Below, piece by piece: positions 28,147-38,057 of a stretch of 38,057 nt of DNA (positions are counted from its first letter, which is position 1; the number at the start of each line of letters is the position of its first letter). Source of the stretch: Rhodospirillales bacterium. Lineage in GTDB: Bacteria > Pseudomonadota > Alphaproteobacteria > Acetobacterales > Acetobacteraceae. The stretch covers positions 1-38,057 of the forward strand of contig JANXSM010000164.1 of NCBI GenBank assembly GCA_025352665.1. Reading direction: 5' to 3'. The translations under genes and the position numbers were made by a program. The notes beneath the pieces are model-generated. The model made no database searches. It was not told the origin of the DNA and saw nothing but the letters and a program-made list of their open reading frames with translations.

Positions 28147-28213
28147 GGGGAGCTCCGTGTTTGATGCGGGGAAACTAGCGTCTTGCGGGCCGGTGTCAAA
28201 AACGGAGGGTGGT

Positions 28214-28759
28214 ATGCTGATTCTCGTGGTGGGTCCGTCCGGCGCCGGCAAGGACACGTTGTTGCTGGCCGCGCGCGCGCAGTTGCCGGTCGATGCCCCC
28301 ATTCGGTTTGCGGTGCGCGAGGTGACGCGGCCGGAAACGCCCGGTGGCGAGCAGCACGTGCCGATCGATTTCCCAACCTTCGTCGCGCGGCGTGAGAGCG
28401 GCGCCTACGCGCTGTGGTGGGAGGCGCATGGTCTGTCCTATGGCATAGCCGCCGATATCGCGGATGATCTCGCAAAAGGTGTGACGGTGGTGGCGAGCGT
28501 GTCTCGCGCCGTCATCGAGCAAGCGGCCGCAAAATTCCCGGTGCGCGTGGTGGAGATCACCGCCCCGATCGAAGTGCTCGCCGCAAGGCTTGCCGCCCGC
28601 GGCCGGGAGAGCGAGGCGGATGTCACCAAGCGCCTGCAGCGCAGCGTGCCGCTTCCGGACGGGATGGAGGTAGTGACTGTGATGAACGACGCAACGGTGG
28701 AGGAGGGGGCTACGGCTTTGCTGGAAGCGTTTGGGCTGCGGGCGAAACCATCAGCGTGA
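28214..28759 (+). CDS. phnN: ribose 1,5-bisphosphokinase
   Basis: The 182-residue P-loop kinase phosphorylates ribose 1,5-bisphosphate to PRPP, the last step in recycling the ribose from C-P lyase. It opens MLILVVGPSGAGKDTLLLAA with Walker A at 7-14, and REVTRPETPGGEQHVPID is the PhnN/guanylate-kinase-like nucleotide loop. The region ALWWEAHGLSYGIAADI and the ending MEVVTVMNDATVEEGATALL fit PhnN. GGAGG at 28204-28208 sits 5 bases before the ATG. It lies 1.1 kb from the rest of the phn operon and faces it, so it needs its own promoter in the 67-bp gap shared with the second gamma-glutamyltransferase gene. Confidence 0.92.
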   Translation: MLILVVGPSGAGKDTLLLAARAQLPVDAPIRFAVREVTRPETPGGEQHVPIDFPTFVARRESGAYALWWEAHGLSYGIAADIADDLAKGVTVVASVSRAVIEQAAAKFPVRVVEITAPIEVLAARLAARGRESEADVTKRLQRSVPLPDGMEVVTVMNDATVEEGATALLEAFGLRAKPSA

Positions 28760-32595: not shown

Positions 32596-33449
32596 GCGGC
32601 AACTCCTTCCGAACCGACATGACCGACATCCCTGTGTGTTTCACAATGATCAGTGTCGGAGCACACGAACAGCCGGCCGCCGCGATCGTCGGTGACGACT
32701 TCGTCGAGATACGAATCTGTCGCCCCGCAGAGTCCGCAGGCGTGTGGTGCGCGCGTGGTGCGGAACGGATGGTCGTCGAAGTCCAGGCTGACAACTTTGG
32801 TATAGGGCGGAATGGCGTAAATGCGCTTCTCGCGCCCCGCGCCAAACAGCTGCAGGGCTGGCATCATGTCCATTTTGGGATTGTCGAAGGCGGGGATCGG
32901 GCTGGGCGCCATCAGGTAGCGATCGTTGACCATGACCGGGTAGTCGTAACTGAGCGAGACATGGCCGAAGCGTGTGATGTCCTCATAGAGCTTCACGTGC
33001 ATCAGCCCGTATTCGGCCAGCCCATGCATGCGCGTGGTTTCGATGCGCGAGGATTCCAGACGCGACAGCGGCTCGGGCTGCGGCACCTGATAGACGATGA
33101 TCTGGTTCTCGTGCAGCTTTTGCTCGGGGATGCGGTGGCGGGTCTGGATGATCGTTGCCTCTGCCGTGCGCGTGGTGGTGGCAACGCCTGCGGTGCGGGC
33201 GAAGAAGCGGCGGATGGAGACGGCGTTGGTGGTGTCGTCCGCGCCCTGGTCGATTACCTTCAACGTATCGTTCGGGCCGAGCACGGCTGCGGTCACCTGA
33301 ATGCCGCCAGTGCCCCAGCCATATGGCAGCGGCATTTCGCGCGAGCCGAAAGGCACTTGGTGGCCGGGAATCGCGACGGCCTTGAGCAGGGCGCGGCGGA
33401 TCATCCGTTTCGTCTGTTCATCCAGATAGGCGAAGTTGTAGCCGGTCAC
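32592..33449 (-). CDS. phnJ: carbon-phosphorus lyase radical SAM enzyme PhnJ
   Basis: The 285-residue PhnJ breaks the C-P bond of ribose 1-methylphosphonate 5-phosphate by radical SAM chemistry. The four cysteines C238, C241, C263 and C269 keep the C-x2-C-x21-C-x5-C spacing of E. coli PhnJ (241/244/266/272); the first three bind the 4Fe-4S cluster and the last is the thiyl-radical cysteine. GYGWGTGGIQVTA-like sequence (PYGWGTGGIQ, residues 42-51) covers the glycyl-radical region. Translation starts at GTG 33449, overlapping the phnI stop (GTGA) and giving MTGYNFAYLDEQTKRMI; longer forms would read into phnI in another frame. Confidence 0.95.
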   Translation of the reverse strand: MTGYNFAYLDEQTKRMIRRALLKAVAIPGHQVPFGSREMPLPYGWGTGGIQVTAAVLGPNDTLKVIDQGADDTTNAVSIRRFFARTAGVATTTRTAEATIIQTRHRIPEQKLHENQIIVYQVPQPEPLSRLESSRIETTRMHGLAEYGLMHVKLYEDITRFGHVSLSYDYPVMVNDRYLMAPSPIPAFDNPKMDMMPALQLFGAGREKRIYAIPPYTKVVSLDFDDHPFRTTRAPHACGLCGATDSYLDEVVTDDRGGRLFVCSDTDHCETHRDVGHVGSEGVAA

Positions 33450-34534
33450 TGCGCGGCCTCCTGTAAGATGTCGCCGATGGCATCGGCGCGCATGCGGCGG
33501 ATGGTCTCCAGCTCGCTTTGGAAATCCACGTAGTGCGGTAGCTTGAGATGCTCGACGAAGCCGGTCGCCTCGATGTTGTCGCAGTGGGAGACGACGAACT
33601 CCACGTTCTGCGCCGGTGCCGCGACGGTTTCGCCAAGCTCCTGTGCCCGCATGGCGCGATCCACCAGCGCCATCGCCATCGCCTTGCGTTCGCCGTGGCC
33701 GAACACCAGGCCGTAGCCGCGCGTGAATTGCGGGCGCACGGTGCGGGAGCCGGCAAACTGGTTCACCATCTGGCATTCGGTTAACGTGATGTCACCGATG
33801 TCGATCTCGAACCCCAGTTCGGGCGGCGTGAGAAACACGCTCGCCTCGCCGACGCGAATTTCGCCGACGAACGGATGTGTGCCGCCCCAGCCGCGCTGGG
33901 TGGAGTAGCCCATGGCGAGCAGGAAACCTTCGTCACCACGGGCCAGCGCTTGCAGGCGCAGGTCGCGCCCGGCGGGAAAGGCAAGTGGCTCGCGGGTGAG
34001 GTCGAACGGCTCGCCGCCAGCGGGGGTGTCGCGCTCAATCAGGCCTTCGTGGTCGAGAATGCCGTGGACATGCGGGATGGCCACCGGTTCGGCCGGCATT
34101 TCGGCAGGCTTGGGCGGCGGCGTGCCGGCGGCGATGGTAAAATCCAACAGGCGATGCGTGTAGTCGTAGGTAGGGCCGAGCAACTGTCCGCCGGGCATGT
34201 CCTTGAACACGGCGGAGATGCGACGGCGGACCTGCATCTGGTCGGTTTCAACAGGCATCGAGGCGGCAAAGCGAGGCAAAGTGGTGCGGTAGGCGCGCAG
34301 CAGAAAAGCGGCTTCGATCAAATCGCCTTGCGCCTGCTTGATTGCCAGCGCTGCAAGGTCGGGATCGTAGAGCGAGCCTTCGGCCATGACCCGATCGACG
34401 CTGCGGCCAAGCTGTTCGCGGATTTGGTCGGTGCCGAGGTCTGGCACGTCCGGGTTGCCGCGACGGTCTTCGGCAAGCCAGGCATGGGCGTTGTCGATGG
34501 CGCGTTCGCCGCCTTTGACGGCCACATAGGCCAT
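33446..34534 (-). CDS. phnI: C-P lyase core subunit PhnI
   Basis: The 362-residue PhnI is the nucleosidase-type catalytic subunit that, with PhnG, PhnH and PhnL, swaps adenine of ATP for methylphosphonate. It opens MAYVAVKGGERAIDNAHAWL, with QIREQLGRSVDRVMAEGSLYDPDLAALAIKQAQGD soon after (shown here by position, about residues 37-71). YDYTHRLLDF, the DHEGLIE region and GYGLVFGHGERKAMAMALVD follow, and it ends SELETIRRMRADAIGDIL. Length equals E. coli PhnI (354) within a few residues. GAGGAG lies 6 bases before the ATG, one base after the phnH stop. Confidence 0.95.
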   Translation of the reverse strand: MAYVAVKGGERAIDNAHAWLAEDRRGNPDVPDLGTDQIREQLGRSVDRVMAEGSLYDPDLAALAIKQAQGDLIEAAFLLRAYRTTLPRFAASMPVETDQMQVRRRISAVFKDMPGGQLLGPTYDYTHRLLDFTIAAGTPPPKPAEMPAEPVAIPHVHGILDHEGLIERDTPAGGEPFDLTREPLAFPAGRDLRLQALARGDEGFLLAMGYSTQRGWGGTHPFVGEIRVGEASVFLTPPELGFEIDIGDITLTECQMVNQFAGSRTVRPQFTRGYGLVFGHGERKAMAMALVDRAMRAQELGETVAAPAQNVEFVVSHCDNIEATGFVEHLKLPHYVDFQSELETIRRMRADAIGDILQEAAQ

Positions 34535-34535
34535 A

Positions 34536-35111
34536 TCAGATCTCCTCGACGGTTAGGCTGCGGGGCAAGGCTGCGAGCGTCTCGCCGACGCACAGGATAA
34601 GGTCGACGCCTCGCGGATACAGCGCGTGGTTGGCCGCCCAGATGGCTGCGAAGTCATGGGGCAGGCCGGTCACCCGAAGTGTTGCAGGCGCTGCAAGGCC
34701 GGGCCCGGAAATACGCCACGCCGAGCCGATTCCAAGAGCTGCCACGTCCAGGATGACCGTCGTTCCCGCCTCGGGCGCATCGTCGCTGCCGGTTTTCAGC
34801 GGAGCAAGGTCGGGTAGGGCGAAGGCGACACAGAAATCGGCCTCCGCGGCGCTGGCAGCGAATGGAGTGCCGGCATGAAAAGCAAGCCAATCTCGGGCCG
34901 GCTCTGCTTCCTTCGCCAGATGCAAACTGGTGTCGACGTCAGTCAACGTGAGCAGCACAGCCGCCATGGCGGGGGCGAGCGGCGCGGGCGGCGTGAGGCC
35001 CACGCCTGCCGCCTGGATCGTGCCGGGGCACGACATGGCTGACAGCACTGCGCGAAAGCACGATTGGGCGTCGAGCACCGCATCGGAAAAGCCTGGCAGG
35101 TCGAGGCTCAT
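34536..35111 (-). CDS. phnH: C-P lyase core subunit PhnH
   Basis: The 191-residue PhnH is a PLP-transferase-fold protein without PLP that dimerises in the C-P lyase core. It opens DLPGFSDAVLDAQSCFRAVL, has SCPGTIQAAGVGLTPPAPL near 29-47, LTLTDVDTSLHLA, and ends YPRGVDLILCVGETLAALPR and the PhnH-typical RSLTVEEI. Start ATG 35111 overlaps the phnG stop (ATGA). Length is normal. Confidence 0.93.
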   Translation of the reverse strand: MSLDLPGFSDAVLDAQSCFRAVLSAMSCPGTIQAAGVGLTPPAPLAPAMAAVLLTLTDVDTSLHLAKEAEPARDWLAFHAGTPFAASAAEADFCVAFALPDLAPLKTGSDDAPEAGTTVILDVAALGIGSAWRISGPGLAAPATLRVTGLPHDFAAIWAANHALYPRGVDLILCVGETLAALPRSLTVEEI

Positions 35112-35581
35112 GTGCTCCTCATCGTGGCAAGAGTGAAGAACTGCACGCGGGTGGCGGCGGCCTTGCGGGCGGATTGGGCGGCTCGCGCTGTTTGCAGTTC
35201 GGCAAGTGGTGCGATGACCGCCTCGGCGTAGTCATCGTGCCGCGATGCGTCTTGCAGAACGGCATCAAGTCGCGCCGCCAGTTCTGCTTGCGCGGCATCG
35301 CGGCCTTTCACGTAGGCATGGCCGATGTGCCCGTCCGTGTCGCGCACGCTGCAGCGGGTGATGGTGATCTCGCCAAGGTTGAACGGAGCACCACCGCCTC
35401 CGGTGCGCCCACGCACCATGGCAAGGCCAGCTTCCGGCGCGCGCAGCCGGGTGAATGCGGGAAGCGGTGGAGCGGCCTGCAGAAGCCTGACAAGCTCGGG
35501 CTGACTGGCCCGGGCAAGCACCGCCATCCAGCTTTGGCGCCGCGGGATCTGTGCGTCTGGAAAGGGCATTTGGAAACTCAT
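35108..35581 (-). CDS. phnG: C-P lyase core subunit PhnG
   Basis: The 157-residue PhnG forms the core hexamer face with PhnH and PhnI. RQSWMAVLARASQPELVRLL near 14-34, APEAGLAMVRGRTGGGGAPFNLG and GEITITRCSVRDTDGHIGHAYVKGRD (about residues 70-95) are diagnostic; PhnG normally ends with a Thr-Arg-Val-x-F-F element, here TRVQFFTLATM. It is the first gene of the minus-strand operon. No ribosome site precedes ATG 35581 or ATG 35569: the 20 bases before the start are occupied by the inverted repeat at 35587-35606, so the message may have a very short leader. Confidence 0.92.
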   Translation of the reverse strand: MSFQMPFPDAQIPRRQSWMAVLARASQPELVRLLQAAPPLPAFTRLRAPEAGLAMVRGRTGGGGAPFNLGEITITRCSVRDTDGHIGHAYVKGRDAAQAELAARLDAVLQDASRHDDYAEAVIAPLAELQTARAAQSARKAAATRVQFFTLATMRST

Positions 35582-35586
35582 GCTGT

Positions 35587-35606
35587 TTAGACGTCTAGAC
35601 GACTAA
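35587..35606. promoter_or_regulatory. probable PhnF (GntR) operator
   Basis: TTAGACGTCTAGACGACTAA is a 20-bp inverted repeat; 9 of 10 positions match between the half-sites TTAGACGTCT and TTAGTCGTCT. The centre is the CTAG of GTCTAGAC, a core common in operators of HutC-type GntR regulators. It lies between divergent phnG (ends 5 bases before its ATG) and phnF (49 bases before its ATG), where a bound repressor could control both transcripts. Confidence 0.85.
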
Positions 35607-35628
35607 GCCTGCGCGGACCTAAGGTCAA
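35600..35628 (-). promoter_or_regulatory. possible phnG operon promoter overlapped by the operator
   Basis: On the minus strand TTGACC (35628-35623) is followed after 17 bases by TAGTCG (35605-35600), a fair -35 with a poor -10. The -10 lies inside the inverted repeat. Transcription would then start 10-15 bases before the phnG ATG, which fits the absence of a ribosome site. Confidence 0.4.
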
Positions 35629-35655
35629 GACGATGTCGCACGACGGAGACGGAGA

Positions 35656-36396
35656 ATGGATGACATTGCTATGAACCCACCTGGCCGAGAGCCCGGCGTC
35701 ACGCTGTGGCGGTCGATCGTCCGCGCCATCGAGGGTGAGATCGCCGATGGCACGCTGGTCCCTGGTGGCAGGCTGCCGACCGAGGCACAGCTTGCCACTC
35801 GCTTCGCCGTCAATCGCCACACCGTGCGTCGCGCGATCGAGGAATTGTCACGCGGCGGCCTGGTCCGCGTGGAGCAAGGCCGCGGCAGTTTCGTGGCTGA
35901 GGACGTGCTGGACTACGCGATCGCGCCGCGCACGCGATTCTCCGAATGGATCCGCCGGCACAACAAGGAACCATCTGGCACCGTGCTCGAATTGCGGGAA
36001 ATGGCGGCAGACCAGACCATCGCCGGCGGCCTCGGCCTGCGCGTGGGGGCAAAGGTGGTGTTTGTGGAAAGGCTGGGATTGGCCGACGAGCGGCCGGTGG
36101 GGCTGAGCGCGCATTATTTCCCTCAGGCCCGCTTCCCCGGCCTCTACGTGGCACTGCGCGACGGGGCGGGGATCAGCGAGGCGCTGGCGCTGTTCGGGGT
36201 GCCCGATTATCGCCGCCAGACCACGCGGGTGACAGCCCGCCTGCCGCAGCCCACCGAGGCCAGCCTGCTGCGCATGCCGCGCAACCGTCCGCTGCTCGTC
36301 ACCGAGAACATCAATGTCGATCCTGAAGGTAGGATCGTCGAATACGGCGTCTCCCGCTACCCCACTCCACGCGTGCAACTCGTGTTCGAACCTTAG
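35656..36396 (+). CDS. phnF: phosphonate utilisation transcriptional regulator PhnF
   Basis: This 246-residue HutC-type GntR regulator has a winged helix at about 10-77 (ATRFAVNRHTVRRAIEELSR and VRVEQGRGSFV) and a UTRA effector domain at about 95-245 (TRFSEWIRRHNKEPSGTVLE; LGLADERPVGLSAHYFP; GRIVEYGVSRYPTPRVQLV). It probably represses the divergent phnG-M operon and itself through the 20-bp repeat upstream, and releases DNA on sensing a phosphonate or pathway metabolite (inference). GGAG 7 bases before the ATG at 35656 supports this start; ATG 35671 is an alternative. The second phnM follows after 9 bases. Confidence 0.92.
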   Translation: MDDIAMNPPGREPGVTLWRSIVRAIEGEIADGTLVPGGRLPTEAQLATRFAVNRHTVRRAIEELSRGGLVRVEQGRGSFVAEDVLDYAIAPRTRFSEWIRRHNKEPSGTVLELREMAADQTIAGGLGLRVGAKVVFVERLGLADERPVGLSAHYFPQARFPGLYVALRDGAGISEALALFGVPDYRRQTTRVTARLPQPTEASLLRMPRNRPLLVTENINVDPEGRIVEYGVSRYPTPRVQLVFEP

Positions 36397-36405
36397 GACA
36401 TCCCG

Positions 36406-37548
36406 ATGCCAGCTCTCATCATTTCAGGCGGACAGGTGCTGCGCGGCGCTGGTTTCGCGCCGGAGGATCTCGTGCTCGCCGACGGTCTGATCGCTGCGGG
36501 TCCAACCGCAGCGGGCACGGCGCGGCGTTTCGATGCCGGCGGCCTGCTGGTGCTGCCGGGGATCGTGGACATCCACGGCGACGCGTTCGAGCGGCAGATC
36601 CAGCCGCGCCCCGGCGTGACGTTTCCGGTGAAGCTGGCGCTGGAGGACACCGAACGGCAGTTGCTGGCCAACGGCATCACCACGGCGTTCCACGGCGTGA
36701 CCCTGTCGTGGGAGCCTGGCCTGCGCAGTGCCACTGCGTGGCGGAGCCTGGTGGATGCGCTCGCGGCCCAAAGCTGGACCTGTGACATGCGCGTGCATCT
36801 GCGCTGGGAGGCCTTCAACCTCGAAGCACTCGACATGGCGCTTGCCGACATCGCGGCCGGTCGTGTGCACCTGCTGGCGTTCAACGACCACACCGCCTCG
36901 ATCCTGGGCAAGCTCGACAACCCTGTCGAGGCAGGTAAATACGCGGGCCGTGCCGGCATGAAGACCGAGTTGTTCCGCGCCCTTGGCAGCCACATCGCCG
37001 GCCGCGCGGGTGAGGTGCCGGAAGCGCTCGATCGCATCGCAGCCGCTGCCCGTGCGGCAGGCCTGCCGATGGCAAGCCACGACGACGATACCATCGCGAT
37101 GCGCGATGCCTTTTCCGCCCGCGGGGCGCATATCTGCGAATTCCCGGTCACCGAAGCTGTCGCCGTGCATGCCCGCTCCCGCGGCGATGCGGTCGTGATG
37201 GGCAGCCCCAACGTGGTGCGCGGCGGTTCGCATCTCGGCTGGGCGTCGGCGGCAGACCTCGCGGAGCGCGGGCTGTGTACGGTGCTTTCGTCAGATTACT
37301 ATTACCAGGCGATGCTGCAGGCGCCCTTCATTTTGGGGCAGCGCGGCGTGCTCGGTCTCGCGGCCGCCTGGGCGCTGATCTCGGCCAATGCCGCCACCGC
37401 CGCGAAGCTCACGGATCGCGGCCAGCTGGCGACAGGTCTGCGGGGCGACGTCGTGGTCGTCGATCCTACCACCCGAACGCCGATCGCCACGTTCGTTGCT
37501 GGCGACCTGGCCTGGATCGGGCCCGACGCCATCGCTCGTCTCGAGTGA
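36406..37548 (+). CDS. second PhnM-like amidohydrolase
   Basis: The 380-residue PhnM paralogue carries all metal motifs: PGIVDIHGDAFERQIQPRPG, LLAFNDHTASILGKL, MASHDDDTIAMRDAF and MGSPNVVRGGSHLGWASAAD. It differs clearly from the canonical copy: HGD instead of HTD, a distinct AFHGVTLSWEPGLRS loop, GRVHLLAFNDH instead of the FMDHSPG element, and SDYYYQAMLQAPFIL at the end. It may act on a related phosphonate ribosyl triphosphate or be a specialised side-reaction enzyme. AGGA, overlapping the phnF stop, precedes the ATG by 8 bases, so it is co-transcribed with phnF and not with phnG-M. Confidence 0.9.
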   Translation: MPALIISGGQVLRGAGFAPEDLVLADGLIAAGPTAAGTARRFDAGGLLVLPGIVDIHGDAFERQIQPRPGVTFPVKLALEDTERQLLANGITTAFHGVTLSWEPGLRSATAWRSLVDALAAQSWTCDMRVHLRWEAFNLEALDMALADIAAGRVHLLAFNDHTASILGKLDNPVEAGKYAGRAGMKTELFRALGSHIAGRAGEVPEALDRIAAAARAAGLPMASHDDDTIAMRDAFSARGAHICEFPVTEAVAVHARSRGDAVVMGSPNVVRGGSHLGWASAADLAERGLCTVLSSDYYYQAMLQAPFILGQRGVLGLAAAWALISANAATAAKLTDRGQLATGLRGDVVVVDPTTRTPIATFVAGDLAWIGPDAIARLE

Positions 37549-37917: not shown

Positions 37918-38057
37918 GAGCGGGATGTGTTGAGGCTGACTCGAGAGGGTGATTCCCGAATCGGCTAAGGTTTGGTTCAAGGTGCTGGCTGGGCGGGAGG
38001 CCAGCTTGCATGGGTCGCCCTTATTCGATGGATCTTCGTGAGCGCGTGATAGCGGCG
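37918..38057 (+). mobile_element. start of an IS630-family element, cut by the window edge
   Basis: The transposase start is at 38010. The left end is placed near a TA at 37916-37917, as IS630/Tc1 elements insert at TA and duplicate it. The sequence GAGCGGGATGTGTTGAGG following it could be the terminal repeat. The other end is outside the window, so the boundary is not verified. Confidence 0.5.
38010..38057 (+). CDS. IS630-family transposase, N-terminal 16 residues
   Basis: The reading frame from ATG 38010 to the window end gives MGRPYSMDLRERVIAA. This is the standard opening of IS630-family transposases from alphaproteobacteria, leading into the helix-turn-helix that binds the terminal repeat. 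Everything after residue 16 is outside the window. Confidence 0.8.
   Translation, partial: MGRPYSMDLRERVIAA

Follow-up and report, generated by a model that had tools for sequence, protein, structure and literature searches.

Genes and a candidate operator between phnG and phnF

The window analysed herein (i.e., the whole stretch of 38,057 nucleotides from a Rhodospirillales bacterium of the family Acetobacteraceae) carries two divergently oriented sets of phn genes. On the reverse strand, the phnG-M operon begins with phnG (35108–35569; PF06754, 169 bits at a cut-off of 32.4), whose start was set by comparison within the genus and whose longest open reading frame (ORF) begins at 35581, and it continues with phnH (34536–35111; TIGR03292, 167.7 bits, cut-off 91.5) and phnI (33446–34534; PF05861, 538.8 bits). 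On the forward strand lies phnF (35656–36396; TIGR02325, 240.9 bits, cut-off 156.8), which encodes a GntR/HutC-type regulator with a UTRA domain. Its product scores above the cut-offs of both PF00392 (GntR) and PF07702 (UTRA), belongs to the GntR/HutC subfamily and is the sole protein of the genome above the TIGR02325 cut-off. A likely ribosome site for phnF, GGAG, is found at 35645–35648 (forward strand; best duplex −6.6 kcal/mol), and 9 nt past phnF follows a second phnM, phnM2 (36406–37548, forward strand), with 407.4 bits against NF011987 (cut-off 253) and 318.1 bits against TIGR02318, which is under the cut-off of 390.55 for that profile. A phnM-like gene was also found downstream of phnF in 63 of 80 loci from named genomes. 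Within PhnI we saw a weak PhnG-like stretch (19.9 bits, under the cut-off), and similar weak second matches occur in many relatives. Further along, on the strand opposite to phnG-M, a kinase-like ORF at 28205–28759, which we take to resemble phnN, gave profile matches to general AAA/kinase families only, while the window end (38010–38057) presumably holds the start of a transposase gene.

The gap between the longest phnG ORF (35581) and phnF (35656) measures 74 bp, as the original prediction had it, and the 20-bp inverted repeat that was described there is indeed present, as the near-palindrome TTAGACGTCTAGACGACTAA (35587–35606, 18 of 20 positions palindromic, no strand assigned). Its occurrence is beyond chance in the window, where the symmetric 20-mer pattern with at most three mismatches matched once, compared with no match in 100 shuffles; the core GTCTAGAC (35593–35600, a sequence match) likewise matched once, with a shuffle mean of 0.08 and at least one match in 8 of 100 shuffles. 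A scan of the 5.27-Mb genome for the same inverted repeat, which had been proposed as a check, returned 35587–35606 as the sole match at up to three mismatches (reversed control pattern: three per strand), and a looser pattern returned this site plus one site with a single mismatch on contig C118 (reversed control: eight per strand). The latter, at 39106–39123 (locus L223), is a weaker operator-like site of 14.6 bits.

The core agrees with the consensus NyGTMTAKACNy given for HutC regulators (PMC4494728), i.e., a palindrome with a GTMTAKAC core, and the arrangement is that of a single-site divergon, with one site between the regulator gene and the structural operon. The parts of that paper covered here name PhnF once, as a binder of alkylphosphonate, and do not contain this operator. 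Our literature search, in which most papers were screened by title only, found no description of it, although one may exist in print or in a regulon database. Taken with the comparison across relatives below, TTAGACGTCTAGACGACTAA is very probably where the repressor PhnF binds, as its single operator, and the site is a conserved yet ordinary kind of bacterial control site, in very compact form.

Conservation of the operator and its link to PhnF

Among 200 genomes of the same family (Acetobacteraceae), phnG was found in 103, of which 102 were over the cut-off. We analysed 101 loci, the window included, after dropping one match below the cut-off (G106) and one truncated match (G004); in G182, 568 nt upstream were readable, and phnF was scored there as not seen rather than as absent beside phnG. 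The loci are species of one family and hence not independent samples, and the 20-bp operator matrix (threshold 8 bits) was built from the loci that it scores, so that the rate in shuffles serves as the control. Using this matrix, a site above 8 bits was detected in 95 of the 101 loci compared with 0.1% of shuffles, comprising 88 of the 90 loci where a divergent phnF was seen and 7 of the 11 where it was not. A second set of 80 loci, collected by PhnF similarity in named genomes, had the operator in 76 and a divergent phnG in 76; it shares several genomes with the 101-locus set, and several others lie outside the family.

The presence of the operator tends to follow that of PhnF even where the genes are apart. 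Seven genomes have the operator but no divergent phnF in the sequence read, and each of them encodes a PhnF over the cut-off elsewhere; of the four operator-less genomes without a divergent phnF, three have no PhnF over the cut-off and the fourth (G003) has two. Three genomes count against the link, namely G059 and G045, where a divergent phnF is present with no site above 8 bits (7.6 in G045), and G003, which encodes PhnF yet has no operator above threshold before phnG. Of eight PhnF loci that lie away from phnG, six gave no match above 8 bits to the operator matrix in the sequence covered, while L190 had a weak one (11.0 bits) and L193 one of 19.6 bits. In the window's own genome, no site above 8 bits was found in the stretches read before two phnCDE-type gene sets. 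Overall, the comparison supports two elements of the original prediction, i.e., that the repeat is a PhnF/HutC-type operator and that one site could serve both directions.

Two predicted promoters interlock at the operator

The phnG promoter is predicted from a −35 element TTGACC (35623–35628, reverse strand) and a −10 element TAGTCG (35600–35605, reverse strand), the latter inside the operator at a 17-nt spacer. Of 95 loci, 59 have a TTGAC that begins ahead of the operator by 22 nt (43 loci), 23 nt (13) or 21 nt (3), which leaves 16–18 nt to a TA that is found at operator positions 2–3 in 71 of 95 loci; by chance, a TTGAC would be expected somewhere within 35 nt in 2.6% of cases. The remaining 36 loci have no TTGAC at the expected place, and 29 of them have none anywhere within 35 nt. 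The position of the −10 would put the transcription start at 35592 (about ±2 nt, reverse strand).

A second conserved TA (positions −15/−14) accompanies the divergent phnF in 73 of 88 loci and is missing in the other 15; none of the seven loci without a divergent phnF has it (p = 1.5e-5, the seven representing three genera only). In the 13 loci where TTGAC lies one base further out, this TA mostly keeps its distance to the operator (T 0.69, A 0.85). It is probably best read as the −10 of phnF, TAAGGT in the window (35620–35625, forward strand), which overlaps the phnG −35 by 3 bp and would be paired, at 18 nt, with a −35 inside the operator, TAGACG (35596–35601, forward strand), for which the evidence is weaker than on the phnG side; the phnF start would then fall at ~35632 (forward strand). 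Thus read, the operator holds the predicted −10 of phnG and probably the −35 of phnF too. A simple consensus promoter scan of 35500–35760 found no promoter, and the phnG −10 TAGTCG is far from TATAAT, so both promoters rest on comparative conservation. In Gluconobacter the mapped −10 is weakly conserved, according to the parts of PMC5756330 covered here, and weak −10 elements are hence normal there. As an interpretation, the original prediction found comparative support for its operator and for the service of both directions, and it lacked the interlocked −35/−10 elements and the PHO-box-like element reaching into phnF described below, both of which emerged from the comparison.

The start of phnG and its ribosome site

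The original prediction started phnG at 35581, which would place the operator at −6 to −25 with no room for a normal ribosome site, and it proposed that operator and a leaderless or near-leaderless start appear to be merged. Comparison within the genus does not favour this start: an ATG follows the first base of the operator by 37–38 nt in seven of eight genomes including the window, where it is the in-frame ATG at 35569 (37 nt), and the eighth genome (L215) has one only at 53 nt, whereas the ATG at operator +25 (35581) occurs in the window only, with TTG at that place in one genus relative. The longest-ORF start at 35581 is thus probably wrong, and with phnG starting at 35569 the operator comes to lie at −18 to −37, so that space for a ribosome site exists. 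What did hold is a phnG start with no detectable ribosome site, as none was seen in the window (best anti-Shine-Dalgarno duplex −2.2 kcal/mol) and the family is not clearly above shuffles.

A start candidate was available in 94 loci; their best duplexes before phnG averaged −3.63 kcal/mol, with 30% of loci reaching −4.4 or lower, and, when restricted to the predicted transcript, −3.41 (29%), compared with −3.33 (28%) in shuffles of the same stretches. Allowing only the most downstream ATG or GTG (88 loci) gave −3.10 (23%) versus −3.00 (23%) in shuffles. The positive control phnI (27 loci) had a clear ribosome-site signal, at −9.17 versus −5.92 kcal/mol when shuffled. No such signal was found for phnH (30 loci with crudely assigned starts; −2.85 versus −3.92), and phnF across the family, at −4.77 versus −5.10 kcal/mol, was not above its shuffles either, so no contrast between phnF and phnG is claimed.

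In the window, the predicted phnG leader (35570–35592, reverse strand) is 23 nt long with the conserved start or 11 nt to the first ATG, both lengths depending on the inferred start point, and no Shine-Dalgarno motif was seen in it. The definition of a leaderless gene in PMC5756330 allows no more than 3 nt of 5′ leader, which both predicted lengths would exceed; in the parts of that paper covered, 5% of the leaders mapped in Gluconobacter are this short, meaning that leaderless genes exist in the family. Measured from the predicted start point, the distance to the first start candidate in the 94 loci is 0–3 nt in 9, 4–10 nt in 17, 11–30 nt in 50 and more than 30 nt in 11, while in 7 the candidate precedes that point; the median predicted leader is 19 nt. 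Judged by these predicted start points, the phnG leader in the family is usually short rather than absent, with no ribosome-site signal. An ATG falls exactly at the predicted start point in four loci (G133, G182, G057 and G096), and a leaderless phnG start touching the operator may exist in a few such relatives; it is unlikely in the window genome, where the conserved start lies 12 nt further on. A further idea, that an ATG within GTCTAGATG has been selected as an in-frame leaderless start, was rejected, since 7 of the 19 sites with an ATG at this position were open and in frame where about one third is expected.

A PHO-box-like element just inside phnF

Just inside phnF we observed a PHO-box-like element, GGTTCATAGCAATGTCAT (35660–35677, reverse strand), and its near-fixed distance from the operator is a new observation. 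Across the family, 81 of 88 loci contain the element, nnGTCATnGnAACTTCAnCCA, at more than 6 bits, compared with 0.2% of shuffles, and in 75 of these 81 it starts 69–74 nt before the operator. A PHO matrix derived from 18 of 30 pstS promoters of the same family had its best match between −75 and −68, relative to the operator, in 76 of 88 loci where 2.6 were expected, in agreement with the family PHO-box pattern. The window copy, at 9.4 bits on this matrix, is a weaker match than the family mean of 14.1. The 30 pstS promoters yielded a CTGTCATCGAAGCTTCAT-like logo (aligned on the very consensus that it reports), in which a TAG −10 follows the start of the box by about 50. At the phn loci the box start precedes TTGAC by 49–51 in 49 of 56 loci, and precedes the operator TA by 72 at the commonest spacing, which is 22 more than from box to −10 at pstS.

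Glutamate is encoded as GAA 62 times and as GAG 4 times in the element, versus 347 and 886 times in the rest of phnF, and in three of the 25 loci listed (G195, G038 and G197) the element does not keep the reading frame of phnF; both the GAA bias and the out-of-frame cases argue against a purely coding cause. Before six of the eight PhnF genes away from phnG the element scores below 0 bits, and the other two are L190 (13.8 bits, at its operator-like site) and L193 (17.0 bits, the second PhnF of G003). The PHO element at a nearly fixed distance upstream suggests a PhoB input here too, i.e., that PhoB acts at the phn promoter region. Elsewhere, L185, L187 and L188 (two Kaistia and one Hyphomicrobiales MAG) carry a PHO-box-like CTGTCATCAAATCGTCAC (TTGTCAT... 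in L188) 31 nt before the operator, a shorter spacing than in Acetobacteraceae. In the window's own genome, the phnCDE-type sets L220 (on C20) and L221 (on C147), with two phnE pairs over the cut-off, have PHO-like boxes with 12 and 13 of 14 consensus bases.

Discussion

From the site itself, its conservation, its spacing to promoter-like elements and its co-occurrence with PhnF, we infer binding, repression, a ligand and the transcription start points, and we give the resulting model of a single operator in interlocked promoters a probability of roughly 85% as a whole. The operator would lie inside two opposed promoters. On the phnG-M side it would cover the −10 and the start, and for phnF-phnM2 it probably includes the −35; the predicted −35 of phnG in turn shares bases with the predicted −10 of phnF. 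One bound PhnF dimer should block both directions, which amounts to repression of the operon together with autorepression. Release of PhnF, presumably by a phosphonate-derived ligand, would open both promoters, RNA polymerase would occupy only one direction at any time, and translation of phnG would begin after a short leader that has no Shine-Dalgarno site.

Three other readings bear on this model to different degrees. A palindrome that served chiefly as a core-promoter or RNA element, and not as a repressor site, would suit the overlap with the predicted −10 and start point, but we regard this as very improbable, because conservation extends beyond the −10 to both sides of the core, operator and PhnF co-occur, and the predicted transcript contains only the last 6 bases of the palindrome. 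An RNA element was also sought by an Rfam search of 35000–36400, which gave no match at the gathering threshold. Translation of phnG from 35581 on a leaderless or near-leaderless transcript, with the operator replacing the ribosome site, draws on an ORF that is open to that ATG, on the 11-nt predicted leader and on the lack of a clear Shine-Dalgarno signal at phnG, as well as on G133, whose sole start candidate coincides with the predicted transcription start, and on 12 of 95 loci with no start candidate beyond operator position 20 (0-based), where the leader would be at most 6 nt. It is nevertheless an unlikely reading, as the genus shares the ATG at +37/38 and not the one at +25, and as the predicted leader typically exceeds the leaderless range.

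A reading that extends the single-operator model rather than excluding it is a two-input gate, in which PhoB at 35660–35677, two helical turns more distant upstream than at pstS, would act as an activator of the phnG promoter, PhnF would repress this promoter, and PhoB at the phnF start may also hinder phnF transcription. We lean towards this extension, given the enrichment of PHO matches at one position, the regular distance from box to TTGAC with a pstS-like logo, the codon and frame evidence, and the low scores before most distant PhnF genes. Against it stand the scores of L190 and L193 despite their separation from phnG, the weak copy in the window, a position that is far upstream for a PhoB site, the possibility that A-rich early codons partly mimic the element, and the alignment of the pstS logo on its own consensus. 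We consider doubtful the still more compact version in which ~90 bp (35587–35677) would hold the whole decision on phosphonate use. There, a PhoB box that adjoins or overlaps the start codon of the repressor, mutually exclusive promoters and one PhnF site doubling as −10/−35 would let phosphate starvation activate the C-P lyase operon while lowering the repressor, with truly leaderless phnG touching the operator in some relatives.

The single-operator model offers a testable rule for how Acetobacteraceae may switch on phosphonate breakdown, and the combined signature of operator and PHO box could serve for predicting how these genes are regulated in genomes not yet studied. The locus is also a case where the longest open frame hinted at a leaderless fusion that close relatives do not support.

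Several known systems resemble the proposed arrangement in part. Single-site divergons of the HutC subfamily of GntR regulators, as described in the parts of PMC4494728 covered, likewise have one GTMTAKAC-type palindrome, which lies nearer the structural operon, whereas the phn site falls within the two predicted core promoters and has a PHO-box-like element at a nearly constant distance. In Mycobacterium smegmatis, the covered parts of PMC7866108 describe a phnF that is likewise divergent from its neighbour operon, phnDCE, and whose product represses that operon from a bidirectional promoter region; two sites and a phosphate transporter are involved there, compared with one site and C-P lyase genes here, and the likeness is one of description and not of operator letters. 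The bidirectional promoters of PMC12825309, in the parts covered, are likewise opposed promoters that polymerase cannot occupy at once. They share a −10 and have starts mostly 18, 10 or 23 bp apart, whereas the −10 elements predicted here are separate, each overlapping the −35 of the other, and the predicted starts are 40 bp apart. Lastly, the PHO box/PhoB promoters of pstS in the same family likewise have CTGTCAT-type 11-bp repeats, which at the phn locus point at the phn operon, with ~22 bp more between the PHO-like box and the −10 than pstS has.
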